NCBI GenBank assembly: GCA_020445945.1
Contig: JAGRFQ010000074.1
Location: 6,432 to 43,714 of the forward strand
DNA length: 37,283 nucleotides
Direction of reading: 5' to 3'
Origin: Rhodocyclaceae bacterium
GTDB lineage: Bacteria > Pseudomonadota > Gammaproteobacteria > Burkholderiales > Rhodocyclaceae
Shown: one piece after another, positions 9,134 to 35,707 of the stretch
Layout: each line of letters starts with the position of its first letter
Numbering within the stretch: position 1 is the stretch's first letter
Position numbers and translations under genes: made by a program
Notes under the pieces: model-generated
What the model saw: only the letters and a program-made list of their open reading frames with translations
Database searches by the model: none
Told to the model about the DNA's origin: nothing

Positions 9134-9226
9134 GGGCGGAGCGGGCGGGGTGTCATAGGCCCCGGATTATACGTTGCGTGCCGCGTCGCGAAATCATCTC
9201 GGCGCGCCACCTCATCTGACGACACC

Positions 9227-9246
9227 TTGGCGCGATATGCGACAAT
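9227..9246 (+). promoter_or_regulatory. Candidate extended -10 promoter of the polysaccharide locus
   Basis: TGC directly before GACAAT (TG at 9238-9239, hexamer 9241-9246) forms an extended -10 about 31 bases before the epimerase start at 9278. No convincing -35 is seen; TTGGCG at 9227-9232 is too close. It lies in the 144-base divergent gap between waaA and the first polysaccharide gene, which would be the natural place for a locus promoter. Confidence 0.35.
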
Positions 9247-9277
9247 AGCGGCCTCAATACGCATCAGGAATTTGACG

Positions 9278-10370: not shown

Positions 10371-11543
10371 ATGATTCCCTATGGCAAGCAGAATATTTCG
10401 GATGAAGACATTCAGGCGGTCGTCGATGTCTTGCGCTCCGATTTTCTGACGCAGGGGCCCGTCCTCCCCGCCTTCGAGAAAACGGTGTCGGCCTATTGCG
10501 GCGCGAAGCATGCAGTGGCGGTTAACAGTGCCACCAGTGCATTGCATATCGCGTGCATGGCGCTGGATGTCGGGCCGGGTGATCTGGTGTGGACCTCGCC
10601 CATCACCTTTGTCGCCAGCGCGAATTGCGCGCGCTACTGCGGCGCCGATGTCGATTTCGTGGACATCGATCCGCGCACCTTCAACCTGTGCGCGGAGCGG
10701 CTGGCGGAAAAACTGCAGCGCGCCGAGCAATCGGGCCGCCTGCCCAAAGTGGTGATTCCGGTGCACATGTGCGGCCAGTCCTGCGACATGGAAGCCATTG
10801 GCCGGCTGGCGAAACAATATGGCTTCCGTGTCATCGAGGACGCCTCTCACGCCATCGGCGGCACGTACAAGGGCAAAAAGGTCGGCGGCTGTGACTACAG
10901 CGACGTGACCGTATTCAGCTTTCATCCGGTCAAGATCATCACCACCGGCGAGGGCGGGATGGCGCTGACCAACGATGTCGAACTGGTCAAACGCATGGCG
11001 CGATTGCGCAGCCACGGGATCACGCGCTACCCGGCAGAAATGACGGCGCCGCCCGACGGGCCCTGGTACTACCAGCAGATCGGCCTGGGCTTCAACTACC
11101 GGATGACCGAAATCCAGGCCGCGCTGGGCATGAGCCAGATGAGCCGGCTGGATGAGTTCGTGACCCAGCGCCACAGTGTTGCCGCGCGCTATGCCGAGTT
11201 GCTGAAGAACAGCCCGGTCAGCACCCCGTGGCAGCATCCCGACGCCTACTCCAGCCGCCATCTGTATGTCATTCGCCTGCAAGGCCCGGGGGGCATGGCC
11301 TTGCGTCGTGAGGTGTTCGAGCGGATGCGGGCCTCCGGCATTGGGGTGAATGTGCATTACATCCCGGTGTATCGTCAGCCCTACTACGCGCGCATGGGGT
11401 TTGATCCGGCCGATTTTCCTGCCGCCGAACAGTACTACGCCGAGGCGATCACGCTGCCGCTGTTTCCCGATCTGACGCTGGAGCAGCAGCAAGCGGTGGT
11501 CCGGAGTCTGACGTCGCCGGTGGGCTATCAGACCCTCTTCTGA
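10371..11543 (+). CDS. pseC: PseC-type UDP-4-amino-4,6-dideoxy-N-acetyl-altrosamine transaminase
   Basis: A 390-residue PLP-dependent DegT/DnrJ/EryC1 aminotransferase. It opens with IPYGKQNISDEDI, the usual PseC start. Asp157 in VIEDASHAIGG would contact the cofactor, and Lys188 in SFHPVKIITTGEGG would form the Schiff base. The C-terminal part VNVHYIPVYRQPYY is also PseC-like. PseC aminates C4 of the 4-keto, 6-deoxy L-sugar nucleotide made by PseB, the second step of pseudaminic acid synthesis. No PseB precedes it here; instead there is an epimerase upstream and an FdtA/FdtB pair downstream. The ribosome site is weak (AAGGCA, about 10 bases upstream). Confidence 0.88.
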   Translation: MIPYGKQNISDEDIQAVVDVLRSDFLTQGPVLPAFEKTVSAYCGAKHAVAVNSATSALHIACMALDVGPGDLVWTSPITFVASANCARYCGADVDFVDIDPRTFNLCAERLAEKLQRAEQSGRLPKVVIPVHMCGQSCDMEAIGRLAKQYGFRVIEDASHAIGGTYKGKKVGGCDYSDVTVFSFHPVKIITTGEGGMALTNDVELVKRMARLRSHGITRYPAEMTAPPDGPWYYQQIGLGFNYRMTEIQAALGMSQMSRLDEFVTQRHSVAARYAELLKNSPVSTPWQHPDAYSSRHLYVIRLQGPGGMALRREVFERMRASGIGVNVHYIPVYRQPYYARMGFDPADFPAAEQYYAEAITLPLFPDLTLEQQQAVVRSLTSPVGYQTLF

Positions 11544-11593
11544 GGCGGCCGCCGCGCGAGCCCACCCATCTGCATAGTCGAGGTCAGCAAAAC

Positions 11594-11962
11594 ATGGCGC
11601 ATTTTACCGTCCTGACGCTTCCCACCTTTACCGATCCGCGCGGCTCCCTGAGCGTGCTGGAAGGCGCGTTGCCCTTCAGCGTGGTGCGCAGCTACTGGAT
11701 TTACCAGGCCGATGGGCAGACGCGGGGCGGCCATCGCCATCGTCATACGCGCCAGGCGCTGGTGGCGGTCGCGGGCGAAGTGAGCATTCACATGAACGAT
11801 GGCATCACCGAAGAGGATGTGGTGCTCAATCGGCCGGATCAGTGCCTGCTGGTCGAACCGAAGGACTGGCACACCATGACCTTCGGCCCTGGGTCGGTGC
11901 TGCTGGTGATGTCGTCCCATCCGTACGATCGCAACGAGTACATCGACACGCCGTATGAGTGA
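11594..11962 (+). CDS. fdtA: FdtA/QdtA-type dTDP-4-oxo-6-deoxyglucose 3,4-ketoisomerase (cupin)
   Basis: A 122-residue single-cupin protein, the full length of this family (WxcM-like C-terminal domain). The start has DPRGSLSVLE; the metal-free active-site strand reads GGHRHRHTRQALVAVAGEVS with His47 and His49 in the usual H-x-H positions; and NRPDQCLLVEPKDWHTM follows. FdtA and QdtA move the keto group of dTDP-4-keto-6-deoxyglucose from C4 to C3. The galacto or gluco configuration of the product cannot be read by eye. It overlaps the next gene, an FdtB-like aminotransferase, by 8 bases, which supports the pairing. No rmlA/rmlB for the precursor is in the window. Confidence 0.85.
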   Translation: MAHFTVLTLPTFTDPRGSLSVLEGALPFSVVRSYWIYQADGQTRGGHRHRHTRQALVAVAGEVSIHMNDGITEEDVVLNRPDQCLLVEPKDWHTMTFGPGSVLLVMSSHPYDRNEYIDTPYE

Positions 11963-13073
11963 CGCTGCACCGATCGAATACGAGAGTCTGGCGCGATCCA
12001 ATCACGCCTTCATGGCCGACCTTGAGGCCGCCGCCAGCCGGGTCATCCGGAGCGGGTGGTACGTGCTGGGTCAGGAGGTCGCCGCGTTCGAGGCCGAGTT
12101 TGCCGCTTATGTCGGCGCGCGGCATTGCATCGGCGTCGGCAATGGGCTGGACGCGTTGCTGCTGTCGATCGAAGCGCTCGACTTGCCGCGCGGCAGCGAC
12201 ATCCTGGTCGCATCCAACACCTATATCGCAACCATTCTGGCCATTGTCCGCGCCGGACATCGGCCGGTGCTGGTCGAGCCCGATCCCGACACCTTCAACC
12301 TCGACCCCGCCGGCCTGCCCGCGGCGATGACCGCGGCGACGCGGGCGATCTGCGTCACCCATCTCTTTGGCAAAAGCTGCCGGATGGACGCCATCGGCGC
12401 GTTTGCGCGGGCGCATGGGCTGAGGGTTGTAGAAGATTGCGCGCAGTCGCACGGCGCGCGCTTGGGCGCGCAGATGACGGGCACTTTTGGCGACGCCGGC
12501 TGCTTCAGCTTCTATCCCACTAAGAACCTGGGCGCTATTGGCGATGCGGGTGCGATCGTTACCAACGACGATGCCCTAGCCGACCGCCTGCGCCACACTC
12601 GCAACTACGGCTCTAAACAGAAATACGTGAACCGCTACGTGGGCGTGAACTCCCGCCTGGATGAACTACAGGCGGCGTTGCTGCGTGTCAAGCTCCGCCA
12701 TCTGGACGCCATGACGGCCCACAAGCGTACACTGGCGCAGATCTATTTCGAGCAATTGCCCGATTGGGTTGCCAAGCCGATACGCCGGCCGGACGAATAC
12801 GACGTATTCCACATCTTCGGCATCCGTCATCCTCAGCGTGATGCCTTGCGCCAGCACCTGCTGGACCATGGCGTCAAGACCGAGATCCACTACCCCATAC
12901 CCCCGCACCGGCAGGAGGCCATGCGGGGCATTCTGGCGGGAAGCTATCCCGTTGCCGAGGAGTTGCATGCTACGGAGATCAGTCTGCCGATATCCGCAGG
13001 GCACACGGCAGGTGATGTGGGTCGCGTCGCCGCGCTGGTTGGCGAGTTCGCCCATAAGGACGCCGCATCATGA
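11955..13073 (+). CDS. fdtB: FdtB-like dTDP-3-amino-3,6-dideoxyhexose transaminase (DegT family)
   Basis: A 372-residue PLP aminotransferase. Asp161 in VVEDCAQSHGA and Lys190 in SFYPTKNLGAIGDAGAI are the cofactor residues; NYGSKQKYVN and VNSRLDELQAALL are shared with FdtB, QdtB and DesV types. It would aminate C3 of the ketosugar made by the FdtA-like protein, giving a dTDP-Fuc3N or dTDP-Qui3N precursor. The usual acetyltransferase partner (FdtC/QdtC) is not visible. The first two thirds are very GC-rich (80% and 68% in two 60-base samples), while the last third falls towards 57% and uses codons such as CTA. The change sits near 12.5 kb. Its ATG overlaps fdtA, and its stop overlaps pseF. Confidence 0.82.
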   Translation: MSDAAPIEYESLARSNHAFMADLEAAASRVIRSGWYVLGQEVAAFEAEFAAYVGARHCIGVGNGLDALLLSIEALDLPRGSDILVASNTYIATILAIVRAGHRPVLVEPDPDTFNLDPAGLPAAMTAATRAICVTHLFGKSCRMDAIGAFARAHGLRVVEDCAQSHGARLGAQMTGTFGDAGCFSFYPTKNLGAIGDAGAIVTNDDALADRLRHTRNYGSKQKYVNRYVGVNSRLDELQAALLRVKLRHLDAMTAHKRTLAQIYFEQLPDWVAKPIRRPDEYDVFHIFGIRHPQRDALRQHLLDHGVKTEIHYPIPPHRQEAMRGILAGSYPVAEELHATEISLPISAGHTAGDVGRVAALVGEFAHKDAAS

Positions 13074-13771
13074 GGGTGGCCGTCATTCCTGCGCGCGGTG
13101 GCAGCAAGCGTATTCCGCGCAAGAACATCAAGCCCTTTTGCGGCAAGCCCATGATTGCTTGGTCGATTGAGGCGGCTTTGCAGAGCAGCTGCTTTGACGA
13201 GGTGATTGTGTCCACCGACGACACCGAGATTGCGTATGTTGCCAGACAGTGGGGGGCGCGCGTGCCGTTCATGCGACCGGCGGCGCTGGCCGATGACCAT
13301 GCGGGAACCATTCCTGTTATTTGCCATGCTATAGAGTGGTTGCGACAGGGGGGCAAGCAGCCATCGCAGGTCTGCTGTATCTACGCCACCGCACCTTTCG
13401 TTCAGGTTGACGACTTGCGGCGCGGGTTGGATTTGTTGCTGGCTAACGATTGCAGTTATGCCTTCTCGGTTACCAGTTATCCGTTTCCAATCCAGCGGGC
13501 TATACGCATCGCAGCGCAGGGGCGCGTCGAAATGTTTCACCCCGAACACTTCAACACCCGGTCGCAGGATCTGGAAGAGGCCTGGCACGATGCAGGTCAG
13601 TTCTACTGGGGGCAGGTGCAAGCCTGGCTGGAGAATGCGGTGTTCTTCTCTCCACTATCCATTCCTGTTCGGTTGCCTCGTCATCGAGTGCAGGATATAG
13701 ACACGCCTGAAGACTGGCTGCGCGCCGAATGGATGTTCAAGGCTATGCAGAGCCAGGCAGGGCTGTTGTGA
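13070..13771 (+). CDS. pseF: Pseudaminic acid cytidylyltransferase
   Basis: A 233-residue CMP-sugar synthetase. The nucleotide-binding start is AVIPARGGSKRIPRKNI (residues 4-20), followed by VIVSTDDTEIA and IYATAPFVQVDDL. The middle carries FNTRSQDLEEAWHDAGQFYW, typical of PseF rather than NeuA. It couples CTP to the free nonulosonic acid, forming the CMP donor. It overlaps fdtB by 4 bases (ATGA) and pseG by 4 bases (GTGA). By family this is the last cytoplasmic step before transfer. Confidence 0.92.
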   Translation: MRVAVIPARGGSKRIPRKNIKPFCGKPMIAWSIEAALQSSCFDEVIVSTDDTEIAYVARQWGARVPFMRPAALADDHAGTIPVICHAIEWLRQGGKQPSQVCCIYATAPFVQVDDLRRGLDLLLANDCSYAFSVTSYPFPIQRAIRIAAQGRVEMFHPEHFNTRSQDLEEAWHDAGQFYWGQVQAWLENAVFFSPLSIPVRLPRHRVQDIDTPEDWLRAEWMFKAMQSQAGLL

Positions 13772-14865
13772 AGATTGCCTTCAGGACGGATGCTTCGCGG
13801 GAAATCGGGACTGGGCATGTAATGCGCTGCCTGACCCTTGCCGATGCATTGCGGGCCAAGGGGGCGCAGTGCCAATTTATCTGTCGCCCTCATCAAGGCA
13901 ATCTGATCTCAACCATACGAACACGTGGCTATGACGTGAGTGAGTTGCCGCCAATGGCTCTTGGCGGTAGCCTCGCTTCTGAGATGCATATGTTCCAGCT
14001 GGCGCATGCCCCATGGTTGGGGTGTGACTGGACGCAGGATTCCGAGCAAACGCTCGCGGCGGTGCGGACCATCAAGCCAGACCTGCTGGTGATCGATCAC
14101 TATGCCATCGACAGTCGCTGGGAAGAGGTTCTCCGGCCCCATGTGCGCAAGCTGATGGTCATAGACGATCTAGCGGATCGCAGGCATCTGTGTGATTTCC
14201 TGCTGGATCAAAACTGGTTCGGCGACGACATGTCTCGCCGGTATCAATGCATGGTTTCTGATCATTGCGTTTCCATGCTCGGCCCTGGCTATGCACTTCT
14301 GAAGCCGGAGTACACAACCCTGCGCAACCTCATGCCGCCACGTGATGGCGAGGTTAGGCGGGTTCTGGTATTCATGGGAGGCAGTGATCCGACCAATGAA
14401 ACCGGCAAGGTCATCGATGCGCTGGCGCAGCCCGGACTTGAGCATCTGGTCGTGGACGTGGTGCTGGGCGTCAATCATCCTGACCCTAGGGGCATAGCCA
14501 GTAAAGCAGAGGCGCGCCTTGCGACGAATCTGCACAGCGGACTGTCTTCCTTGGCAGGGTGGATGGCTCGTGCTGACGTGATGATCAGTGCGGGCGGCTC
14601 GACCAGCTGGGAGCGCATGTGTCTTGGCTTGCCGGCGATCGTGATCAGCATTGCCGAAAACCAGACGGCGACAAGCAAGGCCATGATGGAGGCTGGTTAT
14701 ATCGACTTTCTGGGCGACAGGTCCGATGTCGAGGTCCAGATGATCGCTGCGGCCGTTCGCCGTTGCCTGGCTGACTCTTCGAGATTGCGGCGGATGAGTC
14801 GCACATCGCAAGACCTAGTGTCCGGATCAGGGGCCGAGCGCGTGTGCGAAATTGTGCTGGGATGA
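13768..14865 (+). CDS. pseG: UDP-2,4-diacetamido-2,4,6-trideoxy-beta-L-altropyranose hydrolase
   Basis: A 365-residue GT-B-fold inverting hydrolase that removes UDP from the bis-acylated altrose. It has FRTDASREIGTGHVMRCL at the N-terminus (the GTGHVMRC loop holds the catalytic His), LLVIDHYAID, FLLDQN, VLVFMGGSDPTN, and ISAGGSTSWERMCLGLPAI in the UDP-binding half. The start is the GTG at 13768, inside the end of pseF; an ATG at 13729 in the same frame would add residues not found in the family. In P. aeruginosa and Campylobacter it sits among the same set of genes. The stop overlaps a possible ATG of the next gene. Confidence 0.92.
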   Translation: MKIAFRTDASREIGTGHVMRCLTLADALRAKGAQCQFICRPHQGNLISTIRTRGYDVSELPPMALGGSLASEMHMFQLAHAPWLGCDWTQDSEQTLAAVRTIKPDLLVIDHYAIDSRWEEVLRPHVRKLMVIDDLADRRHLCDFLLDQNWFGDDMSRRYQCMVSDHCVSMLGPGYALLKPEYTTLRNLMPPRDGEVRRVLVFMGGSDPTNETGKVIDALAQPGLEHLVVDVVLGVNHPDPRGIASKAEARLATNLHSGLSSLAGWMARADVMISAGGSTSWERMCLGLPAIVISIAENQTATSKAMMEAGYIDFLGDRSDVEVQMIAAAVRRCLADSSRLRRMSRTSQDLVSGSGAERVCEIVLG

Positions 14866-14879
14866 GCGCAGGAGAGACC

Positions 14880-16079
14880 ATGGCATTCACTCCGCTGAAA
14901 CAGATACCGTACCCGTTGCCCCAGGCTTGGTCCGATGCGATCCGCGACGGCTATGCCTTGTTGCAACGCCAGGTTATGGGGGGGCGCGAGCTTGCCAACT
15001 GGCTGCGGCATGAAGCAGTGGGCGGCCAGTCGCATATATATTTGTACTCTGATGAGGCGGGGATCGCGCAAGGGGCGTTCATCGTGACGGAGCCGTGTGC
15101 AGGCAGCCATGATGCGCAGGTGGCTTGGGTGGTTGCCGGAGATGCCACTCGCCGCGGGATGAGCCAGATGATGTTTGAGGGCATCGAGTTGGCTTTGTCG
15201 GAGCCCACCCGCACCCGGGTTACCTGGGCGCTGGTCGCCGACGAGGCGCTAGATATTGACCGCTACCGGAAATTCGGCTTTTTGCTCGAGGGAATATCCC
15301 GGGAGAATTATCAAGACGGCCACATCCGTCGGGATGTGTTCAGTCTCGGGCTTCTGCGCAGTGACTGGCTGGCTGTCCGGGATGGCTTGGCTTATCGCTT
15401 GACCCGATCCGGGCAGAAAACGAGTGCAGGGAGGACCTATACCATCCAGGTGCTGACGGATGCTGGCTCCTGGATCGCGCCCTACGTGGAAGAGCTTGCG
15501 TTGGAGTGGGAACTGGCGGGGCATTCCGTTCGGGTATCGCACGGCGTGGAGCAGACCCTGCCGGCTGATTTCTGCTTCTGCCTGAGCTTCAGCCGGATTG
15601 TTCCCGCTGTCACCCGACAGCAGTACCGGCATACGCTGGTCGTGCATGAGAGCGATCTGCCACAAGGACGTGGCTGGGCGCCCATGACGTGGCAGATACT
15701 GGAGGGGAAAAATCGCATTCCCATCACGTTGATAGAGGCGGTCGATGCCGTGGATGCCGGTCCGATCTACCTGCAGGAGTGGGTCGAGTTGAACGGCACG
15801 GAACTCAATCCGGAATGGCGGGCCTTGCAGGCGCAGACAACTATGCATCTGTGCCTGCAATGGGTGCAGGCCTATCCGGCCATAACCGACTCCGTACGCC
15901 ACCAGGAGGCGGGGGGCAGTACATATGCACGGCGTAGGCCTGCGGACAGCAGGCTAGACCCAGCGAAAACACTGGCTGAGCAGTTCAATCTGCTCAGGGT
16001 GGTGGACAATGAAGGCTACCCCGCCTTTTTCGAATTCAACGGGCGCCGGTATCGAATCAGAATCGATCCTCAGGACTGA
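14880..16079 (+). CDS. GNAT acetyltransferase fused to a formyltransferase-fold domain
   Basis: A 399-residue two-domain protein. Residues about 15-165 look like a GNAT N-acetyltransferase of the PseH/RimL kind: RYRKFGFLLEGISRENYQDGH is followed by RDVFSLGLLRSDW. Residues about 185-399 look like a formyl-H4-folate-dependent transferase, with HESDLPQGRGWAPMTWQILEG, ITLIEAVDAVDAGPIY, and a C-terminal NLLRVVDNEGYPAFFEFNG. His256 and Asp292 keep the 36-residue spacing of the His/Asp pair in methionyl-tRNA formyltransferase, but the Asn expected two residues before His is Val254. The GNAT half would supply the missing PseH step (N-acetylation at C4); the second half may formylate an amino sugar. 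ATG at 14880 has AGGAG 5 bases upstream; an ATG at 14862 is an alternative. Confidence 0.8.
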   Translation: MAFTPLKQIPYPLPQAWSDAIRDGYALLQRQVMGGRELANWLRHEAVGGQSHIYLYSDEAGIAQGAFIVTEPCAGSHDAQVAWVVAGDATRRGMSQMMFEGIELALSEPTRTRVTWALVADEALDIDRYRKFGFLLEGISRENYQDGHIRRDVFSLGLLRSDWLAVRDGLAYRLTRSGQKTSAGRTYTIQVLTDAGSWIAPYVEELALEWELAGHSVRVSHGVEQTLPADFCFCLSFSRIVPAVTRQQYRHTLVVHESDLPQGRGWAPMTWQILEGKNRIPITLIEAVDAVDAGPIYLQEWVELNGTELNPEWRALQAQTTMHLCLQWVQAYPAITDSVRHQEAGGSTYARRRPADSRLDPAKTLAEQFNLLRVVDNEGYPAFFEFNGRRYRIRIDPQD

Positions 16080-16086
16080 AGCGGAA

Positions 16087-16791
16087 ATGACGGCAAATGG
16101 CTATATCGTGGCAAGCTGCAAATCTTGGCACAGGTCGGGGTTCGAGGCCCTGAAAAGCCAGGAGGACGGCCTATGGTCCTGGGGGGCTTCTCCCAAGGAA
16201 CTTTTGCGTTGCGTAAAAGAGATTCCCACTCCCCGGTATATCTTCTTTCTGCACTGGAACTGGCATGTGCCGAAAGATATCTGGGCGCAGCATGAGTGCG
16301 TGTGCTTTCACATGACGGATGTACCATACGGCCGCGGAGGCAGCCCCCTGCAAAATCTTATTGTGGCCGGGCATAAAAGCACGAAGCTTTCGGCATTGCG
16401 GATGGTCGACGAAATGGATGCCGGCCCCGTCTATGCCAAGAGGGAGATGGCGCTGGATGGGCGGGCGGAAGATATCTATATGCGGGCTGGCGCACTGAGT
16501 TTCGAGATCATCCGGTGGATGGTCCGCAATGAGCCGGTGGCGGTGGCACAGCAAGGCGAGCCGGTAATGTTCAGGCGGCGCAAGCCCGAGCAGAGCGTGT
16601 TGCCGATGGATGGATCGTTGCAGGCGGTATACGACCATATCCGCATGCTGGACGCGCCTACCTATCCGCCTGGATTCATTGAGCATGGCGGCTTGCGTCT
16701 TGAGTTTTCAAATGCGCAACTTCAGGGTGACGAGATCGTTGCCCGCGTTGTGATCCGAAAGAAACCGATAGATCAAGAGACCGAATCATGA
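16087..16791 (+). CDS. Formyltransferase-family protein of the pseudaminic-acid cluster
   Basis: A 234-residue protein with the core of a formyl-H4-folate-dependent sugar transferase. It has FHMTDVPYGRGGSPLQNLI (residues 74-92), then MVDEMDAGPVYAKREM. His75 and Asp111 are 36 residues apart, as in FMT, but the residue two before His is Cys73 rather than Asn. This H-x-T-D-x-P-x-G-R-G form is close to the C-terminal half of the preceding protein (H-E-S-D-L-P-Q-G-R-G), so the two are likely relatives. It probably acts on an amino group of the Pse pathway, with 7-N-formyl as a guess. A start further upstream (16009) lies inside the previous gene. The end overlaps pseI by 4 bases. Confidence 0.8.
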   Translation: MTANGYIVASCKSWHRSGFEALKSQEDGLWSWGASPKELLRCVKEIPTPRYIFFLHWNWHVPKDIWAQHECVCFHMTDVPYGRGGSPLQNLIVAGHKSTKLSALRMVDEMDAGPVYAKREMALDGRAEDIYMRAGALSFEIIRWMVRNEPVAVAQQGEPVMFRRRKPEQSVLPMDGSLQAVYDHIRMLDAPTYPPGFIEHGGLRLEFSNAQLQGDEIVARVVIRKKPIDQETES

Positions 16792-17834
16792 CTTATGCAA
16801 TCGATGGCCGGCCTATTGGTCCGGAACAACCTCCTTACATCATTGCCGAGCTTTCGGCCAATCACAATGGGTCGCTGGAGCGTGCCCTCCAGACAATTGA
16901 CGCCGCACAACGCTGCGGTGCCAGTGCCATCAAGCTGCAGACGTACACGGCTGACACCATGACGATTGATTGTGATCGTCCGGACTTCATGGTCAAAGGT
17001 GGGCTCTGGGACGGGTTCAAGCTTTATGACCTGTACAAGTGGGCGCAGACACCGTTTGAATGGCATCAGGCCATGTTCGAGCACGCCCGAAAGATCGGGG
17101 TCACCGTTTTCTCGACACCATTTGATGAAAGTGCAGTCGACCTGCTTGAACGTCTCGATGCACCCGCCTACAAGATTGCGTCTTTCGAGAACACAGACCT
17201 GCCATTGATGCGTTACGTGGCGCGCACTGGCAAGCCGATCATTATGTCGACCGGGATGGCGACTGAGTCGGAGATCGCCGAAGCTGTTGACGCGGCCCGG
17301 AGTGCGGGCTGCAAGGACTTGGTGCTTCTGCATTGCATCAGTAGCTACCCCGCTCCCATGGAGCAGGCCAACATACGCCAGATGCAGGAGCTCGCGCGGC
17401 GATTTGGCATCATCCCCGGGCTTTCTGATCACACGATTGGAACGACTGCATCGGTGGCCGCTGTGGCGCTGGGCGCCTGCGTGATTGAAAAGCACTTCAC
17501 CCTCAGTCGTGCAGACAAAGGGCCCGACAGCGAATTTTCGATCGAGCCGCAGGAGCTGGAGCGTCTGTGCCGCGAGGCGCAAGACGCTTGGCTGGCAATT
17601 GGCAAGGTAGGCTACCAGCGACAGACCGCTGAGGAGGGCAGCAAGGTGTTTCGGCGCTCAATCTACTTCGTGCGCGATCTGCGCGCAGGTGCGATCGTGC
17701 GTGCTGAGGACATACGGCGCATACGTCCCGGCATGGGGTTGCCGCCCAAACACTTTGATGACCTGATCGGAAAGCGTCTGTGTGTGGATGTGGTCCGCGG
17801 GACAGCCACTAGTTGGGACCAGTTCCATGAGTAA
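16788..17834 (+). CDS. pseI: Pseudaminic acid synthase
   Basis: A 348-residue NeuB-family synthase. The TIM barrel opens with YIIAELSANHNGSLERAL. The segment KLYDLYKWAQTPFEWH is characteristic of PseI and differs from LegI/NeuB. FSTPFDESAVDLLE, STGMATESEI and VIEKHFTLSRADKGPDSEFS line the metal and PEP sites. A C-terminal SAF antifreeze-like domain begins near residue 285 (RRSIYFVRDLRAGAIV). It condenses PEP with the free 6-deoxy-altrose to give pseudaminic acid. It overlaps the formyltransferase gene by 4 bases and the PIG-L gene by 8. It is the firmest evidence that this locus makes a Pse-type nonulosonate. Confidence 0.94.
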   Translation: MTYAIDGRPIGPEQPPYIIAELSANHNGSLERALQTIDAAQRCGASAIKLQTYTADTMTIDCDRPDFMVKGGLWDGFKLYDLYKWAQTPFEWHQAMFEHARKIGVTVFSTPFDESAVDLLERLDAPAYKIASFENTDLPLMRYVARTGKPIIMSTGMATESEIAEAVDAARSAGCKDLVLLHCISSYPAPMEQANIRQMQELARRFGIIPGLSDHTIGTTASVAAVALGACVIEKHFTLSRADKGPDSEFSIEPQELERLCREAQDAWLAIGKVGYQRQTAEEGSKVFRRSIYFVRDLRAGAIVRAEDIRRIRPGMGLPPKHFDDLIGKRLCVDVVRGTATSWDQFHE

Positions 17835-18498
17835 CTCTGTACTGGCGGTGGCCGCGCATGCGGACGACGAAGCCCTGGGGTGCGGGGGCAGCCTTGCCAA
17901 ACATGTCGCCGCGGGCGACAAGGTACATGTCATCTTCGTGGCCGACGGAGTGACTTCCAGGGGAGGGGCTGGGCAGGATGATCTGGTGCGCCGCCAGCAG
18001 GCTACAGAGAAAGCGCGGCAAATCCTCGGTATCAGCACCATGACATTTCTGGACTTGCCCGACAACCGGCTCGACAGTTTGCCCCGGCTGGACATCGTCC
18101 AGCCGCTGGAGACACTCATCGGCAAGCTCCAGCCGGAAATCATCTACACGCATCACTATGGGGATCTGAATGTCGACCACCGGCTTGTCCACCAGGCAGT
18201 CATGACGGCTTGTCGGCCATTGCCAGGCAGCACGGTCCGGGAAATTCTTGCCTTTGAGGTGATGTCCAGCACGGAGTGGAGCAGCCCGGGACTGGCCCCA
18301 TTTCTTCCCAATTTTTTTGTCGATATCAGTGCCCAGATGGAAATCAAGATGCAGGCGCTGCAGGCCTACGCATTGGAGATGCGTGTTCCACCCCATTCGC
18401 GTAGCGCGGAGCACGTGCGCTGCTTGGCGAAGCATCACGGATATTGCGTGGGTGTTGATGCTGCAGAGGCATTCATGGCGATGAGAGTTCTCAGGTAA
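17827..18498 (+). CDS. PIG-L/LmbE-family de-N-acetylase
   Basis: A 223-residue zinc-dependent deacetylase. The metal site is visible as AHADDEALGCGG (His11, Asp14) and later DLNVDHRLVHQAV (His118, with His122). In this family the proteins remove N-acetyl groups from GlcNAc-containing lipids, mycothiol precursors or antibiotic sugars. Its place directly after pseI (8-base overlap) and next to two formyltransferase-like genes suggests it removes an acetyl from a sugar or nonulosonate so that another acyl group can be put on; that is an inference. The stop overlaps the following FkbM gene by one base. Confidence 0.85.
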   Translation: MSNSVLAVAAHADDEALGCGGSLAKHVAAGDKVHVIFVADGVTSRGGAGQDDLVRRQQATEKARQILGISTMTFLDLPDNRLDSLPRLDIVQPLETLIGKLQPEIIYTHHYGDLNVDHRLVHQAVMTACRPLPGSTVREILAFEVMSSTEWSSPGLAPFLPNFFVDISAQMEIKMQALQAYALEMRVPPHSRSAEHVRCLAKHHGYCVGVDAAEAFMAMRVLR

Positions 18499-19202: not shown

Positions 19203-19212
19203 GGTGTCGGCC

Positions 19213-22235: not shown

Positions 22236-22238
22236 CAG

Positions 22239-23453: not shown

Positions 23454-24391
23454 GCGTTCGCGCGATGGTCTCGCGGCTGGTGCCGCAGTCGGCAAAGAAC
23501 TTCCTGCGCCAGCGGACGCTGCCGTGGCGGATCTCCGGCTTGATCAGCCCGGGCCTGCCGACGACAGTGTGCGTCGATGTGGGCGCTTCGCATTACCCGC
23601 ACGTGCGCTGGCTGGCGTTTCTCAATGCGCCCGCCACGCAGTGGCTGGCGGTCGAGCCGAACGAGGCCAACCTGGGGTATCTGAAGTCGTGGGCCTGGCC
23701 GTGTCAGGTGAGCGCGTGCACCACCGGCCTGAGCCAGACCGGCGGGGCGCAGACGCTGCATGTCACCAACGTGGATACCGGTTCCAGCCTGCTGCCACCG
23801 GAAATTCCCGATTCGATGAAGCATCGGGTGAACAATCTGGATTACTTCTTTCCGGTCACCGAGCGGGTCATCGATACCTTGACCCTCGTGCAGGCCATGG
23901 CGGCGCTGCCCGCGTCGGCGCCAGTGCTCGTCAAGCTGGATACCCAGGGCACCGAGCTGTCGATTCTGCAGGGCGCGGCCGAGTTGTTCGAGGCCCGGCG
24001 CATCGTCGGCATCGAGATGGAGTCGACCCTGCTGGCCAAGCCCTTGATGCGCGGGTCGGGCAAGTTCTGGCAGGCCTGCGAATACCTTGAAGGACAGGGG
24101 TTCGAGCTCATGCACATCAAGCCGATTCCGGCCATTCCGCGCTCGGGGCGGCCGCTGGTCGGGCGCAACATGTACCTGAACGAGTGCGACGCGGTGTTTG
24201 CCCTGCGCCGTGACGTGGCGGCCGGCTTGCCGGTGGAATATCGTGCCTGTCTGCTGGCGTTCTACCTGACCTATTTCTTTTACGAAGAGGCGGCGTCGAT
24301 GCTGGACGACGATCTGGCGCTGGGCGAATTCCTGCAGCAGCGCGGCTGCGCGCTGGAGCCGCTCAAGGCACTGGTCAAGGCCGCATCGTGA
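23450..24391 (+). CDS. FkbM-family methyltransferase (second copy, longer)
   Basis: A 313-residue protein with the FkbM pattern: CVDVGASHYPHVRWLAF as the SAM loop, VEPNEANLGYL, and VKLDTQGTELSILQGAAEL. It differs strongly from the first FkbM of the locus and carries about 80 extra C-terminal residues, helical and ending in LLAFYLTYFFYEEAASML. It is presumed to O-methylate a sugar hydroxyl in the cytoplasm. It overlaps the oxygenase gene before it and the ABC exporter after it by 4 bases each, so the three products are probably made together. Confidence 0.85.
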   Translation: MSVRAMVSRLVPQSAKNFLRQRTLPWRISGLISPGLPTTVCVDVGASHYPHVRWLAFLNAPATQWLAVEPNEANLGYLKSWAWPCQVSACTTGLSQTGGAQTLHVTNVDTGSSLLPPEIPDSMKHRVNNLDYFFPVTERVIDTLTLVQAMAALPASAPVLVKLDTQGTELSILQGAAELFEARRIVGIEMESTLLAKPLMRGSGKFWQACEYLEGQGFELMHIKPIPAIPRSGRPLVGRNMYLNECDAVFALRRDVAAGLPVEYRACLLAFYLTYFFYEEAASMLDDDLALGEFLQQRGCALEPLKALVKAAS

Positions 24392-26106
24392 TCGTTCGCG
24401 GCATCCGGGCCTTCTCGACGCTCGCCGGGCAGATTCTGGTCTATGTGGCGTATCTGGCGCGCAACTATCGCGCCTTCTACGTCGTGCTGGGCCTGACCGC
24501 GATTGTGCTGCTGCTCGAATACGTGGCGACCAGCCTGATGATTCCGATGGCGCCGGGCCAGGGGTCTGCCAATTCGAAGGTGACCGTGGCGTGGACCGCC
24601 GTTGCCGAGAGCATCGGGATGGCGCCCACCTCCCGAACCTGGCTGTGGCTGTTTTTCGTGGTGATGATCATTCGCCTGGTGCTGGGCTATGGGCTGTCGG
24701 TGCTCACCACCTGGCTAGGCAAGCGCGTCCATGAAGCGATGAGCGGCAAGATCTTCAGCCATATCCTGTTGATCGAACCCATGGGGCGGGTGTACACGCG
24801 CTCGGTCGGCCACTACATCACCATGGCTGGCGACGATACCTTCAAGTGCGGCACCATCGTCAGCGCGCTGCTGCAGACCGCGGTCGGTTTCTTTACCGCC
24901 GTGGTCGGGGTCGTGGTGCTGTACCAGTTTTCTCCCTGGGTCTTTGCCGGGGTCATGCTGTTCCTGCTGATCTGCATGCTGCTGACCGGTGCCTTGCTGC
25001 GCCGTGTGCTGCGACTGAACGTGGCGGCCATTGAACTGTCGCGCGAACTGGGCACCACCTTTGTCGAGGCGCTCAACAGCCTGCGTTCGATCCGCTCCCT
25101 GCACGGCGAGCGTTTCGTGATCGGCACCTACGGCGGCCAGATCCATCGCTACATCCGCATGCTGGTGGAGATGGACGCCATCAAGCTCGGGGTCAAGGCC
25201 TTTCCGGCGGTGGTGTTGCTCCTGCTGGCCACGGTTGGGCTGCGCCCCGGGGCCGAGGTGGAAATGTCCGATGCCGCGCTGTTTGGCGGGACGATCATTA
25301 TCATCCGGATTTTTGCGGCACTGGGGCAGATGGTCACTGCCGGTTCTTTGTTGCTGACGGACATTCGCGCCGTCAAGAACATCGGCGCGATGGTTGCGCT
25401 GGCCGAGGAGGTGCCGGTCGTCGAAACCGCACCCGCACCGGTCAAGGTCTGCGCCGTGACGCTGGAAGGCATATGTTTCGGTTACGGGGAGCGGGGACAG
25501 GTGCTCGACAACGTCAGCTTCAGCTTTCAGGCCGGTCACACCTACGCCATCGTCGGTCCGTCCGGCGCGGGCAAGTCCACCCTCGCCGACGTGTTGCTGG
25601 GGCTCAGCACGCCGGACAGCGGCACGGTGCGCATCAACGACGGCGGCATCGCCCTCGACCGCGCCCGCACTCGCTTCACGCTGGTCGAGCAGCAGCCGAA
25701 GATTTTTTCCACCAGCGTGCGCGAGAATTTGCTGCTGGGCGACAGCGCCAGCGAAGAAGAGCTGTATCGCGCGCTGGAGGCGGTCAATCTGGCCGACATG
25801 GTGCGCGCGCTCGACCAGGGGCTCGATACGCGGCTGAGCTATCTGGGAGAGAATTTCTCCGGCGGTCAGCGCCAGCGGCTGGGCATTGCCCGGGCGCTGA
25901 TCCGCAAGCCGGATGTGCTGATTCTCGATGAGGCCACCAGCGCGCTCGATCCGCAGACCCGCGTCGAAGTGGTCGACAAACTGCGCATGCGGATGCGCGA
26001 CGGCATCATCATCTTCATCACCCACGACCCGGATATCGCCGCGCTGGCCAGCGAGGTGTTGCCGATCGGTCAATTGCAGGCCGAGCTGGCCGCGGGGAAC
26101 CCGTAA
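24388..26106 (+). CDS. ABC exporter (fused membrane and ATPase domains), candidate lipid-linked glycan flippase
   Basis: A 572-residue half-exporter. Residues 1-330 are a six-helix membrane domain. The ATPase domain follows with Walker A GPSGAGKST (390-398), Q-loop VEQQPKIF, signature SGGQRQR (from 491), Walker B VLILDEA (510-516) and the switch His in FITHD. This type I exporter layout is shared by MsbA and by PglK/Wzk, the flippases of undecaprenyl-linked oligosaccharides. No Wzx-type protein is visible in the window, so flipping the glycan of this locus is a reasonable but unproven role. It overlaps the FkbM gene, and the next glycosyltransferase starts 2 bases after its stop. Confidence 0.87.
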   Translation: MIVRGIRAFSTLAGQILVYVAYLARNYRAFYVVLGLTAIVLLLEYVATSLMIPMAPGQGSANSKVTVAWTAVAESIGMAPTSRTWLWLFFVVMIIRLVLGYGLSVLTTWLGKRVHEAMSGKIFSHILLIEPMGRVYTRSVGHYITMAGDDTFKCGTIVSALLQTAVGFFTAVVGVVVLYQFSPWVFAGVMLFLLICMLLTGALLRRVLRLNVAAIELSRELGTTFVEALNSLRSIRSLHGERFVIGTYGGQIHRYIRMLVEMDAIKLGVKAFPAVVLLLLATVGLRPGAEVEMSDAALFGGTIIIIRIFAALGQMVTAGSLLLTDIRAVKNIGAMVALAEEVPVVETAPAPVKVCAVTLEGICFGYGERGQVLDNVSFSFQAGHTYAIVGPSGAGKSTLADVLLGLSTPDSGTVRINDGGIALDRARTRFTLVEQQPKIFSTSVRENLLLGDSASEEELYRALEAVNLADMVRALDQGLDTRLSYLGENFSGGQRQRLGIARALIRKPDVLILDEATSALDPQTRVEVVDKLRMRMRDGIIIFITHDPDIAALASEVLPIGQLQAELAAGNP

Positions 26107-26108
26107 GC

Positions 26109-27245
26109 ATGCGTATCGCGCTGCTCGACACCTACTACCCCCGCTTCCTGGCCACGCACTATGCGGCCAACCCGCAACTGGCCGCTGGCGCGTATGACCA
26201 GCAGCGGCAGTCCTTGCTGGATCAGGGGTTTGGGACCTCGGATTTCTATTCCCGCCATTTGCGCGCGCTCGGTCATGACGTCGAAGATCTGATCGTCAAT
26301 TGCACGCCGCTGCAAAGCACCTGGGCGCGGGCGCATCGCGTGCCGTTCAGCGCGCTGGCGCTGGGCTTGCCGCAGCGCTTGCTGCGCCTGCCGCTGATCG
26401 GCCCGCCGCTGTCGGCGCTGCCCGGGCTGGTCCACATTGCGGTCGAGCAGATCAAGCGCTTTCGCCCGGATGTGCTGTACTGCCAGGACTTGTGGTTTCT
26501 CGCGCCGGCACAGTTGGCGGCCCTGCGCCCGCACGTCAGGCTCATCGTCGGCCAGATCGCCAGCCCGCTGCCGCCGGAGAAGTATCTGGCCGGCTACGAC
26601 CTGATCATGACCTCGTTTCCCCATTTCGTGCCGCGCCTGCGCGCCATGGGGATTGCGTCGGAGTACTTCCGCATCGGCTTCGATACGCGCGTGCTGGATT
26701 TGCTCGGCGAGGTGACGCCCGACATCGAGGCGAGCTTCGTCGGCGGCATCAGCCGCCATCATGGCAAGGCGCTGCCGATGCTCGAGGCGCTGGCGCGCAG
26801 CACGCCGATCGAGTTCTTCGGCTACGGGGCGGACCGGCTGGAGCGCACGTCGCCGATCGTGGCCCGCCATCATGGCGAGGTCTGGGGGCTCGACATGTAC
26901 CGGGCGCTGGCACGCAGCCGGGTGACCCTGAACCGGCACATCAACGTCGCCGAAAATTTTGCCAACAACATGCGCCTGTACGAAGCGACCGGCGTGGGGG
27001 CCTTGCTGATCACCGATCGCAAAGACAATCTGGGCGACCTGTTCGAGGTGGGGCGCGAAGTGGTCGCCTACGCCAGCGCCGAGGAGGCGGCCGAACTCAT
27101 CCGCCATTACATCGCGCATCCCGACGAGGCCCGCCAGATTGCCGCGGCGGGGCAGGCGCGGACGCTGCGCGATCACACCTACCGACGGCGGATGGAAGAG
27201 CTGGCGCCGGTGCTTGAGCGTTACCTGGAGGGGGCGGAGCGATGA
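26109..27245 (+). CDS. GT-B glycosyltransferase of the CgeB-like group
   Basis: A 378-residue protein. The N-terminal MRIALLDTYYPRFLATHY and the donor-side motif HINVAENFANNMRLYEATGVGALLITD-type segment (about residues 278-304) match glycosyltransferases often labelled CgeB or glycosyl_trans_1_2. FRPDVLYCQDLW and SFVGGISRHHGKAL are also in the places expected. Donor and acceptor are unknown. No membrane segment is clear. It overlaps the following methyltransferase by 4 bases. Confidence 0.8.
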   Translation: MRIALLDTYYPRFLATHYAANPQLAAGAYDQQRQSLLDQGFGTSDFYSRHLRALGHDVEDLIVNCTPLQSTWARAHRVPFSALALGLPQRLLRLPLIGPPLSALPGLVHIAVEQIKRFRPDVLYCQDLWFLAPAQLAALRPHVRLIVGQIASPLPPEKYLAGYDLIMTSFPHFVPRLRAMGIASEYFRIGFDTRVLDLLGEVTPDIEASFVGGISRHHGKALPMLEALARSTPIEFFGYGADRLERTSPIVARHHGEVWGLDMYRALARSRVTLNRHINVAENFANNMRLYEATGVGALLITDRKDNLGDLFEVGREVVAYASAEEAAELIRHYIAHPDEARQIAAAGQARTLRDHTYRRRMEELAPVLERYLEGAER

Positions 27246-28045
27246 AGGCGAGACTGCGCGCGCTGCTCAACCGTTTCCCGCGTCTCAAGGCCGTGCTCAA
27301 AGGCGTGAAGCGCCGGATGGTTCCGGATGACGGTGTGTCCACCCATTATGTGGAACTGGCCGGCGACCAGGCCGGCAGCGAATCGGTGCGTTTGCGTCAG
27401 GCCTGGCAGGATGACAGCCTGCCCGCCCGGCAGCGCCACCTGGTCGACGCGGAACTGGCCCAATTCCGGTCCGGTACGCCGGTGCCCGTGTTCGACGTGC
27501 TGGTCCGTAGTCTGCGCGACCTTACCGATGGCCCGGCGCCCTTCAGCCTGCTAGAAATCGGCTGCTCCAGCGGCTATTACGCCGAGGTGATGCAGATCGC
27601 CAATGTGCCGGCGCAGTACACCGGTTGCGACTATTCGGCGCATTTCATCGCCATGGCCCGCGAGCGTTATCCCGAACGGCAGTTCGATGTCGAAGACGCC
27701 ACCCGGTTGCGCTACGACGATGCAGCCTTCGACGTGGTGGTCTCCGGCTGCTGCCTGCTGCATATCCCGGAATACGCAAAGGCCGTGGCCGAAACCGCCC
27801 GGGTCGCGCGGCGCTACGTCATTTTTCATCGCACGCCGGTGGTCGTGGGCCAGCCCGACAAGTACTACCGCAAGCTGGCGTATGGCGTGGAGACCATTGA
27901 AATCCATTTCAACGAGCCGGCCTTTCTCGCACTGCTGGATCGCCACGGACTGGAGCGAGTGGCCACCCACACCCTCGACGAGACCATCCGCCAGGGCGTC
28001 GGCAGCGCCAGCCGGACCTACGTGTGTCGCAAAAAGGCCACTTGA
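27242..28045 (+). CDS. Class I SAM-dependent methyltransferase
   Basis: A 267-residue protein. The SAM motif is LLEIGCSSGYYAEVM (from residue 103), then GCDYSAHFIAMAR, DVEDATRLRYDDAAFDVVV, and ISGCC-type strand 4 ending in LLHIPEYAKAVAE. This is the Methyltransf_11/25 pattern. The first 90 residues are basic and have no recognised domain. It may methylate a sugar or a nucleotide sugar in this locus. The start overlaps the glycosyltransferase gene before it. Confidence 0.85.
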   Translation: MKARLRALLNRFPRLKAVLKGVKRRMVPDDGVSTHYVELAGDQAGSESVRLRQAWQDDSLPARQRHLVDAELAQFRSGTPVPVFDVLVRSLRDLTDGPAPFSLLEIGCSSGYYAEVMQIANVPAQYTGCDYSAHFIAMARERYPERQFDVEDATRLRYDDAAFDVVVSGCCLLHIPEYAKAVAETARVARRYVIFHRTPVVVGQPDKYYRKLAYGVETIEIHFNEPAFLALLDRHGLERVATHTLDETIRQGVGSASRTYVCRKKAT

Positions 28046-28047
28046 GC

Positions 28048-29019
28048 ATGCATTACTTCTGCACTTTGTTTGACAGCAACTACTTGCTCAAGGGCGTTGC
28101 CATGCTGCGCACGCTCAAACAGCACTGCCCCGACGCGCAGGTGCATGTGCTGTGCATGGACGCGCAGACGCAAGCGCTGCTGGAGCAACTGGCGCTGCCC
28201 GATGTGCGGTGCATCGCGCTGGCCGATGTCGAGGAGCCGGCGCTGCTGGCGGTCAAGCCCGGGCGCAGCGTGGCGGAATATTGCTGGACGCTCTCGCCGT
28301 GCCTGCCCTGGTATGTGCTGCAACACAATCCGGACATCGATTTCATCACCTACCTCGACGCCGACCTGTATTTCTTCTCGTCGCTGCAGCCGCTCTTCGA
28401 CGAGATCGCCGACGCGTCGGTGGTGATCATCGAGCACCGTTTCCCGCCTCACCAGAAGCATCTCGAAAAGAACGGCCGCTTCTGCGTCGAGTGGGTCGGG
28501 TTCCGGCGCGACGAGAGCGGCACGGCCTGTCTGGCGCGGTGGCGGGAGCAATGCATCGAGTGGTGCTTTCATCGCCTTGAAGGCGACCGCATGGGCGATC
28601 AGAAATATCTCGACGCGTGGCCGAGCGCTTACGCCGGCGTGCATATCCTGCAGCATCCCGGTGCGGGGGTTGCGCCCTGGAACTATGGCCAGTACGCCTT
28701 CGGGGTGAATGCGGCCGGGCAGCCGACGGTTGGCAATGCGCCGCTGATTTTCTACCATTTCCACCAGTTTCAGCTTCTGTCCGATGGCAGCTTCGACCGC
28801 CTCTCCGGCTTCTACACGGCCCGAGCGCCCGAGCCTGCGCTAGTCTACGAGGCCTATGAAGATGCAATGACGCGCGGTTTGCAGGAAATACGGGCGATCC
28901 GGCCGGGTTTCTCGGCTGGGATCAAACCGTTTTTACGCATCAAGTCGCAGCGGCTGGCGCAGAAATATCTGCCCGAATTTGCCAAACGACTGCTCAAGAA
29001 ATTCGTCAGCGCCGTTTGA
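28048..29019 (+). CDS. GT-A-type glycosyltransferase-like protein with a DxD motif
   Basis: A 323-residue protein opening with HYFCTLFDSNYLLKGVAML, the start of GT8-like or nucleotide-diphospho-sugar transferase proteins. The metal motif is Asp104-Ala-Asp106 in FITYLDADLYFFSS. Later GDQKYLDAWP and PLIFYHFHQF resemble acceptor-side segments. It probably adds a sugar from a nucleotide donor in the cytoplasm. ATG at 28048 lies 2 bases after the previous stop; a GTG at 28024 in the same frame is possible but overlaps. The C-terminus is basic (KSQRLAQKYLPEFAKRLLKK), perhaps for membrane contact. Confidence 0.78.
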   Translation: MHYFCTLFDSNYLLKGVAMLRTLKQHCPDAQVHVLCMDAQTQALLEQLALPDVRCIALADVEEPALLAVKPGRSVAEYCWTLSPCLPWYVLQHNPDIDFITYLDADLYFFSSLQPLFDEIADASVVIIEHRFPPHQKHLEKNGRFCVEWVGFRRDESGTACLARWREQCIEWCFHRLEGDRMGDQKYLDAWPSAYAGVHILQHPGAGVAPWNYGQYAFGVNAAGQPTVGNAPLIFYHFHQFQLLSDGSFDRLSGFYTARAPEPALVYEAYEDAMTRGLQEIRAIRPGFSAGIKPFLRIKSQRLAQKYLPEFAKRLLKKFVSAV

Positions 29020-29062
29020 CCCCCGGCCCGCAGCGCCGACACGCAAGGATATGCAGGACGCT

Positions 29063-30091
29063 ATGTTTACAGACAAGGTGTTGTTGATTACCGGCGGCAC
29101 GGGTTCATTCGGCAACGCCGTGCTGCGTCGCTTTCTCGATTCCGGGCTGCGCGAGATCCGCATTCTCAGCCGCGACGAGAAAAAGCAGGACGACATGCGC
29201 AAGCGCTACAACGACGCCAAGCTCAAGTTCTACGTTGGCGACGTGCGCGACTACCAGTCGGTTGTCAATGCGGCGCGCGGGAGCGACTTCATCTTCCACG
29301 CCGCAGCGCTCAAGCAGGTGCCGTCCTGCGAGTTTCATCCGATGGAAGCGGTCAAGACCAATGTGCTGGGGACCGAAAATGTGCTGGAGGCGGCGATTGC
29401 CTGCGATGTGGCGCGGGTGATTTGCCTGAGCACCGACAAGGCGGTCTACCCCATCAACGCGATGGGCATCTCCAAGGCGATGATGGAAAAAGTCGTGGTC
29501 GCCAAATCCCGCAGCAGCAACGCGACGGTGATTTGCGCGACCCGCTATGGCAACGTGATGGCATCGCGCGGTTCGGTGATTCCGCTGTTTGTCGAGCAGA
29601 TCCGGGCGGGTGCGCCGATCACCATCACCGATCCGAACATGACGCGTTTCATGATGACGCTCGACGATGCGGTCGATCTGGTGCTGTATGCCTTCGAGCA
29701 TGGCCGCCCCGGCGAAATCTTCGTGCAGAAGGCGCCCGCCGCCACGATCGAGACGCTGGCGCGCGCGCTGACCGGACTGATGGGCGCGCCGGAGCATCCC
29801 ATCAATGTCATCGGCACGCGCCACGGCGAAAAACTGTTCGAGGCCTTGCTCAGCCGTGAGGAAATGGTGGCGGCCGAAGATCTGGGCAACTACTATCGCG
29901 TGCCGCCGGACTTGCGCGATCTCAACTACGGCAAGTTCGTCGAGCAGGGCGAAGTGAGGATCTCCGCCGCGGACGACTACAACTCGCACAACACCACCCG
30001 GCTGGATGTGCCCGGCATGCAGGCGCTGTTGCGGCAGCTTGCCTTCATTCAGGCGATCGAGCGGGGCGGAAACGTCCAGCTAGAGGAGTGA
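29063..30091 (+). CDS. capE: UDP-GlcNAc 4,6-dehydratase/5-epimerase of L-FucNAc synthesis
   Basis: A 342-residue SDR protein, the length of CapE/WbjB/FnlA. NAD loop GGTGSFG (11-17), AALKQVP with Lys84, LSTDKAVYP, and MGISK in which Met134 stands where most SDRs have the catalytic Tyr (with Lys138). A Met there is known in WbpM-type dehydratases. The enzyme dehydrates UDP-GlcNAc and inverts C5 to a 4-keto-6-deoxy-L-sugar. Two ATGs are possible: 29063, with AGGA 4 bases upstream, or 29051. The direct followers capF and capG confirm the pathway. Because PseB makes an equivalent keto sugar and is missing from this locus, CapE could feed both branches. Confidence 0.92.
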   Translation: MFTDKVLLITGGTGSFGNAVLRRFLDSGLREIRILSRDEKKQDDMRKRYNDAKLKFYVGDVRDYQSVVNAARGSDFIFHAAALKQVPSCEFHPMEAVKTNVLGTENVLEAAIACDVARVICLSTDKAVYPINAMGISKAMMEKVVVAKSRSSNATVICATRYGNVMASRGSVIPLFVEQIRAGAPITITDPNMTRFMMTLDDAVDLVLYAFEHGRPGEIFVQKAPAATIETLARALTGLMGAPEHPINVIGTRHGEKLFEALLSREEMVAAEDLGNYYRVPPDLRDLNYGKFVEQGEVRISAADDYNSHNTTRLDVPGMQALLRQLAFIQAIERGGNVQLEE

Positions 30092-35661: not shown

Positions 35662-35707
35662 TATAATCGCGGGAAGGAAAACCGTCTCGCGATTGCCTCC
35701 CGATCCA
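35662..35707 (+). promoter_or_regulatory. Candidate promoter of the wbpM-like gene
   Basis: A perfect TATAAT (35662-35667) lies in the 78-base gap after the wbpL-like gene. No good -35 is seen about 17 bases upstream. Transcription would begin near 35674, giving a leader of roughly 33 bases before the ATG at 35707. GGGAAGGAAA at 35671-35680 is too far from that ATG to be its ribosome site. This suggests the dehydratase can be expressed apart from the rest. Confidence 0.4.

Follow-up and report, generated by a model that had tools for sequence, protein, structure and literature searches.

A CapE-type dehydratase predicted to supply both the pseudaminic acid and the N-acetyl-L-fucosamine branch in a locus where no pseB is found

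The stretch of DNA analysed here (the window; G000:C19:6432-43714, 37,283 nucleotides) comes from a Rhodocyclaceae bacterium, the genome of which comprises 3,115,112 bases in 114 contigs and is 86.84% complete. It carries genes for pseudaminic acid synthesis and, further downstream, genes for uridine diphosphate (UDP)-N-acetyl-L-fucosamine (UDP-L-FucNAc). An earlier reading of the sequence, hereafter the original prediction, had noted that the first set contains no gene of the pseB type, and had proposed that CapE, the first enzyme of the second set, supplies both pathways. Genes were assigned using the bit-score cut-offs of curated hidden Markov models (NCBIfam/TIGRFAM) and Pfam E-values. Those on which the argument turns are the following, given by position in the window.

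10371..11543, + strand: pseC, aminotransferase acting at C4 of UDP-4-keto-6-deoxy-N-acetyl-L-altrosamine (UDP-4-keto-6-deoxy-L-AltNAc); TIGR03588, 568.6 bits, cut-off 423.5
13070..13771, + strand: pseF, cytidine monophosphate (CMP)-pseudaminic acid synthetase; TIGR03584, 356.7 bits, cut-off 205.7
13729..14865, + strand: pseG, UDP-sugar hydrolase; TIGR03590, 296.9 bits, cut-off 153.55
16788..17834, + strand: pseI, pseudaminic acid synthase; TIGR03586, 512.6 bits, cut-off 340.25
29063..30091, + strand: capE/fnlA-type UDP-N-acetylglucosamine (UDP-GlcNAc) 4,6-dehydratase/5-epimerase, the proposed shared first enzyme; TIGR04130, 648 bits, TIGR03589, about 312 bits; Met134
30093..31199, + strand: capF, 3-epimerase/4-reductase, start of the L-FucNAc branch; NF047837, 585 bits, cut-off 500
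31201..32331, + strand: capG-like UDP-sugar 2-epimerase; TIGR00236 (wecB), 224.4 bits, cut-off 210.15
35707..37283, + strand: long dehydratase, which I take to be of the WbpM type, running off the window; PF02719, E 6e-104, after a CoA_binding_3 region

PseC and the other canonical pathway members PseF, PseG and PseI all score above the cut-offs of their curated models, in agreement with the original prediction. The same holds for its statement that no protein of the PseB type precedes pseC: none in the window reaches the PseB cut-off (TIGR03589, 407.75 bits). The genome-wide search for PseB that it had proposed was run on the 86.84% complete assembly and again gave none above that cut-off. 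The six TIGR03589 matches in the genome are the CapE gene (311.4 bits), the WbpM-type gene (163.2 bits) and four weak ones below 40 bits. Nor did tblastn with 14 PseB proteins detect a pseB remnant in the window or in 27 loci of PseB-less genomes, the matches being limited to CapE, WbpM-type and generic short-chain dehydrogenase/reductase (SDR) genes.

CapE lies about 19 kb downstream of pseC, as originally described. It is 342 residues long when read from the ATG at 29063 (the listed open reading frame, ORF, begins at a TTG at 28979) and possesses K126, M134 and K138. Alignment confirms Met134 in the column where four of four PseB proteins have the active-site Tyr; this residue, together with a TIGR03589 score well short of the cut-off, places CapE outside the PseB family. 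Its nearest solved structures are 4j2o (568 bits) and the Staphylococcus aureus CapE 3vvb (467 bits), FlaA1 scoring 234 bits. CapE is also 77.8% identical to an annotated Escherichia coli fnlA product, and is thus ordinary-looking, so that no special enzyme seems required. In the window capE, capF and the capG-like gene stand in the order of the UDP-L-FucNAc pathway.

The distribution of PseB and CapE was examined in genome samples of the order, the class and the phylum. PseC above cut-off was found in 66 of 399 genomes of the order sample, in 46 new genomes among the 369 searched for the class, and in 67 new genomes among the 398 searched for the phylum. PseB is present in 169 of these 179 genomes, including G001, where two partial matches at contig ends were read as one split gene, and absent from ten (order 5/66, class 3/46, phylum 2/67). 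CapE/FnlA-type genes were called by a gap in the scores, the lowest counted having 421.8 bits and the next in the order sample at most 275, mostly PseB genes themselves. They occur in 4/5, 3/3 and 0/2 of the PseB-less genomes of the order, class and phylum samples, and in 4/61, 0/43 and 1/65 of the genomes with PseB. Pooled, CapE is present in seven of the ten PseB-less genomes vs five of the 169 with PseB (p 8.5e-8 in a Fisher test, which ignores kinship, G060 and G330 being of one genus). Without the window's own genome it is present in 6/9 (p 8.9e-7). Where PseC scores at least 510 bits the figures are 4/4 vs 5/127 (p 1.1e-5, or 1.6e-4 without the window's genome). G824, whose PseC is below cut-off, was excluded from the 179; its inclusion gives CapE in 7 of 11 PseB-less genomes.

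Of the seven PseB-less sample genomes with CapE, six have PseI above cut-off, the exception being G629, where PseC lies at a contig end. PseC and CapE share a contig in the window's genome and in G060, G330 and G638, and G508 has a PseI match on CapE's contig. Among the genomes having both PseB and CapE, these genes are on different contigs in G316, G037, G134 and G293. The three PseB-less genomes without CapE are of two sorts. G090 has neither canonical PseB nor CapE; next to its WbuB-like and CapG-like genes is one for a related Met-type enzyme that shares about 40% identity with CapE. In G769 no other window-like pse gene was found in 20 kb around PseC, and in G802 the other pse-like genes near PseC resemble the window's only weakly, so that these two may not be pseudaminic acid producers.

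A second set consisted of the best 80 PseC loci among the matches listed when a species-level collection was queried with the window's PseC; these loci were first sorted by blastp against the window's proteins, PseB being called from blastp scores against CapE. A PseB-like ORF is present in 68 loci, three are contig-edge cases and nine are PseB-less. The three (L130, L153, L190) were rejected as artefacts of contig edges: PseB is above cut-off in the L130 and L153 genomes, and in L190 a PseB fragment scoring 131 bits lies where the contig ends. By contrast, whole-genome searches gave no PseB above cut-off in any of the nine PseB-less named genomes. In eight of these, CapE (67-79% identical to the window's) is on the contig and strand of pseC, about 9-36 kb away: Herbaspirillum sp. 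SJZ106, an uncultured Pseudomonadales, Herbaspirillum lusitanum P6-12, Herminiimonas sp. KBW02, an uncultured proteobacterium, Polynucleobacter sp. UK-Kesae-W10, Burkholderiales bacterium PBB3 and Pseudogulbenkiania subflava DSM 22618. In the genomes of L130, L153, L190, L138 and L126 none of the matches scored within the range seen for CapE. The isolate Herbaspirillum sp. SJZ106 shares the window's gene order over the whole span between pseC and the WbuB-like gene, but its gene in the PseH position has no GNAT part. PseI was found in the fetched DNA of seven of the nine loci; the L116 contig ends after PseG.

The second branch is more variable than the original prediction implied. Its FucNAc assignment is borne out in the window by capEFG but is not universal, since an RmlD-like reductase replaces capF in some loci. 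In Herminiimonas sp. KBW02 and H. lusitanum a capG-like gene follows capE and another SDR, RmlD-like by Pfam in H. lusitanum, stands before capE in place of capF; the second sugar in these two may therefore be of the N-acetyl-L-quinovosamine (L-QuiNAc) type.

The same arrangement was found on a plasmid. A PseC match at E<=1e-120 was seen in 25 plasmid records, 24 of which also have PseB, of at least 54% identity, among the matches listed (60 of 100). The remaining one, MesoLj113b2 of Mesorhizobium sp. 113-3-3 (L238, NZ_AP023244.1), is typed as conjugative. It carries genes annotated pseC-pseF-pseG-pseH-pseI; beyond two further genes come CapE, which has 84.8% identity to that of the window, an RmlD-like SDR and wecB. 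No PseB-like match besides CapE was found within the 41 kb fetched. The 24 plasmids with PseB are absent from the best 30 of 31 CapE-bearing records. With a single PseB-less plasmid among 25, the association has p 0.04.

In a quick tree of 137 PseC rows, 17 of them PseB-less and 120 labelled as having PseB, the PseB-less state requires five changes, four of which fall on well-supported branches. The main PseB-less group contains the window, L114-L120, L124, G060 and G330, with four Bacteroidota rows that have PseB nested inside it; G320, Pseudogulbenkiania, and a divergent group of G090, G508, G629 and G638 are placed elsewhere, the long branches of G638 and G508 meeting in this tree. In 200 random pairings, loss of PseB and presence of CapE changed in concert in an average of 2.6 out of 3 pairs. 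All 97 columns that are near-invariant in the 120 rows labelled as having PseB are kept by the window's PseC, and 93-97 of them by the other main-type PseB-less PseCs; the 120 rows themselves average 96.6, with a minimum of 92.

Published work bears on the chemistry of such a branch point. FlaA1 (PseB) and CapE carry out the same two reactions, 4,6-dehydration and C5 epimerisation, the key Tyr of FlaA1 being Met in CapE, and CapF performs a later C3 epimerisation and reduction (PMC3699295). The PseB product is L-arabino-hexos-4-ulose, which PseC aminates (PMC3120886). The equivalence of the CapE and PseB intermediates, on which the original prediction relied, is stated in PMC7439481, where both enzymes are assigned one product, and for FlaA1 and CapE in PMC3699295; the branch point is therefore chemically sound.

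In the pathway proposed here, CapE, predicted from family likeness to invert UDP-GlcNAc at C5, would be the first enzyme of both routes in the locus. PseC would aminate part of its product at C4, and the aminated sugar would then be processed by an acyl or formyl transferase, PseG, PseI and PseF in turn, ending as CMP-pseudaminic acid. CapF and CapG would convert a further share of the product to UDP-L-FucNAc. Given a capE gene in the cluster, pseB would be dispensable, and none is found. I consider it highly probable that CapE is the common source for PseC and for the L-FucNAc (or RmlD-type) branch. This view is based on gene content, on PseB not being found, on the association with CapE, on the several places that the PseB-less state occupies in the PseC tree and, for the common product, on the papers cited; that PseC draws on CapE's product in the cell is what these lines of evidence would predict.

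Several observations weigh against such sharing. Membership of the family is no guarantee of C5 inversion, because Pdeg of Bacillus cereus, 46% identical to PseB, is non-inverting at C5 (PMC4514872) and the Met-type SpsM acts in vivo as a non-inverting enzyme (PMC7439481). The window's CapE itself falls below the curated FnlA cut-off (TIGR04130, 730 bits), a value reached by none of the 180 PseC-bearing genomes searched. The sharing put forward in the original prediction gains from the enrichment of CapE in the pooled PseB-less genomes and from the eight named genomes with capE on the pseC contig, but the phylum sample by itself gives no association. Moreover, the tree offers only three to four independent pairs, and a sign test, which therefore cannot reach significance, does not. 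Four of the 17 PseB-less rows are of the divergent PseC type and keep 74-79 of the 97 columns, which makes the PseC identity of that group weaker. PseC and CapE are on separate contigs in G320, G508 and G629; a ninth named genome, a 2.5 Mb Herminiimonas metagenome-assembled genome (L116), has neither PseB nor CapE; and in locus L115 the fetched DNA encodes PseC and CapE without PseF, PseG or PseI. Finally, G897 holds PseB, PseC and CapE in one locus, and retention of both first enzymes is therefore possible.

Other explanations were considered. L115 would suit a product other than pseudaminic acid, PseC making a 4-amino-L-altrose sugar, fed by CapE, that is used directly in the polysaccharide. 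This is very unlikely for the window, given that PseI is encoded there, in most of the named PseB-less loci and, above cut-off, in six of the seven CapE-bearing PseB-less sample genomes. Alternatively, a genuine pseB might lie in the unassembled 13% or so of the genome, CapE serving L-FucNAc only. The assembly is indeed incomplete and in 114 contigs, and PseB accompanies PseC in all but ten of the 179 genomes. However, eight named PseB-less genomes, including the syntenic Herbaspirillum sp. SJZ106, have CapE and no PseB above cut-off, G638 (2 contigs, 100% complete) and G320 (100% complete) are likewise PseB-less with CapE, and a random gap would not select CapE-bearing genomes. I regard an overlooked pseB as decidedly improbable.

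Two further candidates for the first step are encoded close by. The WbpM-type gene at 35707 specifies a PF02719 enzyme within the same locus, but enzymes of the WbpM class generally retain the C5 configuration and would provide PseC with the wrong epimer. Furthermore, three genomes with PseC and without PseB (G1116, G1118, G1119; completeness not given) gave no WbpM-type match at E<=1e-30, and the gene was rejected as PseC supplier on this ground. In H. lusitanum, the uncultured proteobacterium and Polynucleobacter (completeness not given), CapE is the sole TIGR03589 match at E<=1e-30, so that no WbpM-type enzyme was found to feed PseC there. Since the gene that tracks PseB loss is CapE, supply by the WbpM-type enzyme can be given hardly any credence. 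The other candidate is an SDR gene (ORF 9119-10288) directly upstream of the window's pseC. Upstream of pseC there are also three SDR genes in G508, one in L115 and an SDR-like fragment in L120, and the two enzymes Pen and Pal are known to replace PseB in Bacillus thuringiensis (PMC7439481). Yet the best model of the window's SDR is GalE, below its cut-off, and the 10 kb preceding pseC in the syntenic locus L114 contain no counterpart, for which reasons it was rejected as a hidden PseB. Nor was one found in L114, L118, L119, L120 or L124 by a coarse motif scan, which overlooked the L120 fragment and was accompanied by no whole-genome SDR census. A Pen/Pal-like pair or some other SDR in place of PseB thus appears very unlikely, and CapE remains the preferred first enzyme.

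The other genes assigned in the window are as follows.

11594..11962, + strand: FdtA-type cupin (3,4-ketoisomerase family) inserted in the pse operon; PF05523, E 3.8e-31
11955..13073, + strand: second DegT-family aminotransferase, partner of the FdtA-type gene; PF01041, E 8e-100
14844..16079, + strand: protein in the PseH position, weakly GNAT-like in its N-terminal part and formyltransferase-like in its C-terminal part; PF13420, E 0.18, NF007527, E 0.0066, PF00551, E 5e-9
16009..16791, + strand: second formyltransferase-like protein; PF21553, E 1.5e-20
32339..33595, + strand: glycosyltransferase after capEFG, presumably WbuB-like; NF007640 (WcaI family), 134.6 bits, below the cut-off of 276
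Between the WbuB-like and the WbpM-type gene: an SDR, then a WecA-type transferase

The original prediction had also recognised a PseH-like GNAT domain, for which the signal is weak. Residues 1-199 of the 14844-16079 protein barely match GNAT models, the two values listed being the only such matches; a model search of these residues gave no PseH match, and the remainder is formyltransferase-like. Its homologues (L114:14661-16003, L228:2314-2982, L231:14104-14742) match the formyltransferase part alone. The presence of formyltransferase-like genes where PseH is expected therefore suggests an N-formyl pseudaminic acid. Next to pseI and the formyltransferase gene there is a conserved gene for a PIG-L type deacetylase (window 17782-18498; L096:3046-3714; L114:17054-17725), possibly for deacetylation followed by formylation.

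The FdtA-type cupin gene has an equivalent position in L114, L115, L124, L098 and L099, and the order in which it and the second DegT aminotransferase follow pseC (11594-13073) is kept in several PseB-less loci. This aminotransferase is below every NCBIfam cut-off listed for it. Homologues of the WbuB-like glycosyltransferase occur near capE in several loci. L225, like L115, combines PseC and CapE, with PseF, PseG and PseI not found in the fetched DNA; these two may use the 4-amino-L-altrose sugar directly. In three genomes whose PseC is of a divergent type, pseC is followed by a gene for an aldo/keto reductase (L104:11765-14676, with one gene between; L108:10314-11192; L100:4117-4992), and the next gene in L104 encodes a fusion of a cytidylyltransferase with a class-III aminotransferase; the product of these loci is perhaps an unusual nonulosonic acid. 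The capF of G897 (L237:6709-7814) is read as two overlapping ORFs.

On balance, I favour the view that the locus represents a recurrent architecture for a surface polysaccharide that contains pseudaminic acid together with a sugar of the L-FucNAc type. A single CapE would feed PseC and CapF, pseB would tend to be lost, and the supply of both repeat-unit sugars would be coupled, an arrangement that would have arisen several times and could travel on a plasmid. PseB-based screens for pseudaminic acid producers would miss such loci, and a PseC locus without pseB should prompt a search for capE/fnlA. If CapE does feed both branches, it offers a clear example of a nucleotide-sugar enzyme common to two pathways of a single polysaccharide; this would help in predicting glycan structures and in making both sugars enzymatically from one intermediate. 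No description of CapE-PseC sharing was found in the accessible parts of the open literature searched, a body from which most subscription journals are excluded.

The sharing is a variation on a known pathway and not a new kind of system. With the PseB/FlaA1-PseC pathway of Helicobacter and Campylobacter (FlmA/FlmB in Caulobacter) the window has in common the PseC, PseG, PseI and PseF families, gathered in one locus; it differs in that no PseB is found and that the first step is assigned to a Met-type CapE encoded about 19 kb away. From the UDP-L-FucNAc systems CapE-CapF-CapG, WbjB-WbjC-WbjD and FnlA-FnlB-FnlC, whose three genes it has in the same order, with a CapE close to 4j2o and 3vvb, it differs in that CapE would have a second pathway to supply as well. 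In Bacillus subtilis, SpsM is likewise a Met-type CapE relative that starts a nonulosonic acid pathway, but it does not invert C5 and makes legionaminic acid (PMC7439481). Pen and Pal of B. thuringiensis provide the precedent for replacement of PseB in the first step of pseudaminic acid synthesis (PMC7439481); whereas that system employs two dedicated enzymes, the window would rely on one enzyme shared with another sugar pathway.

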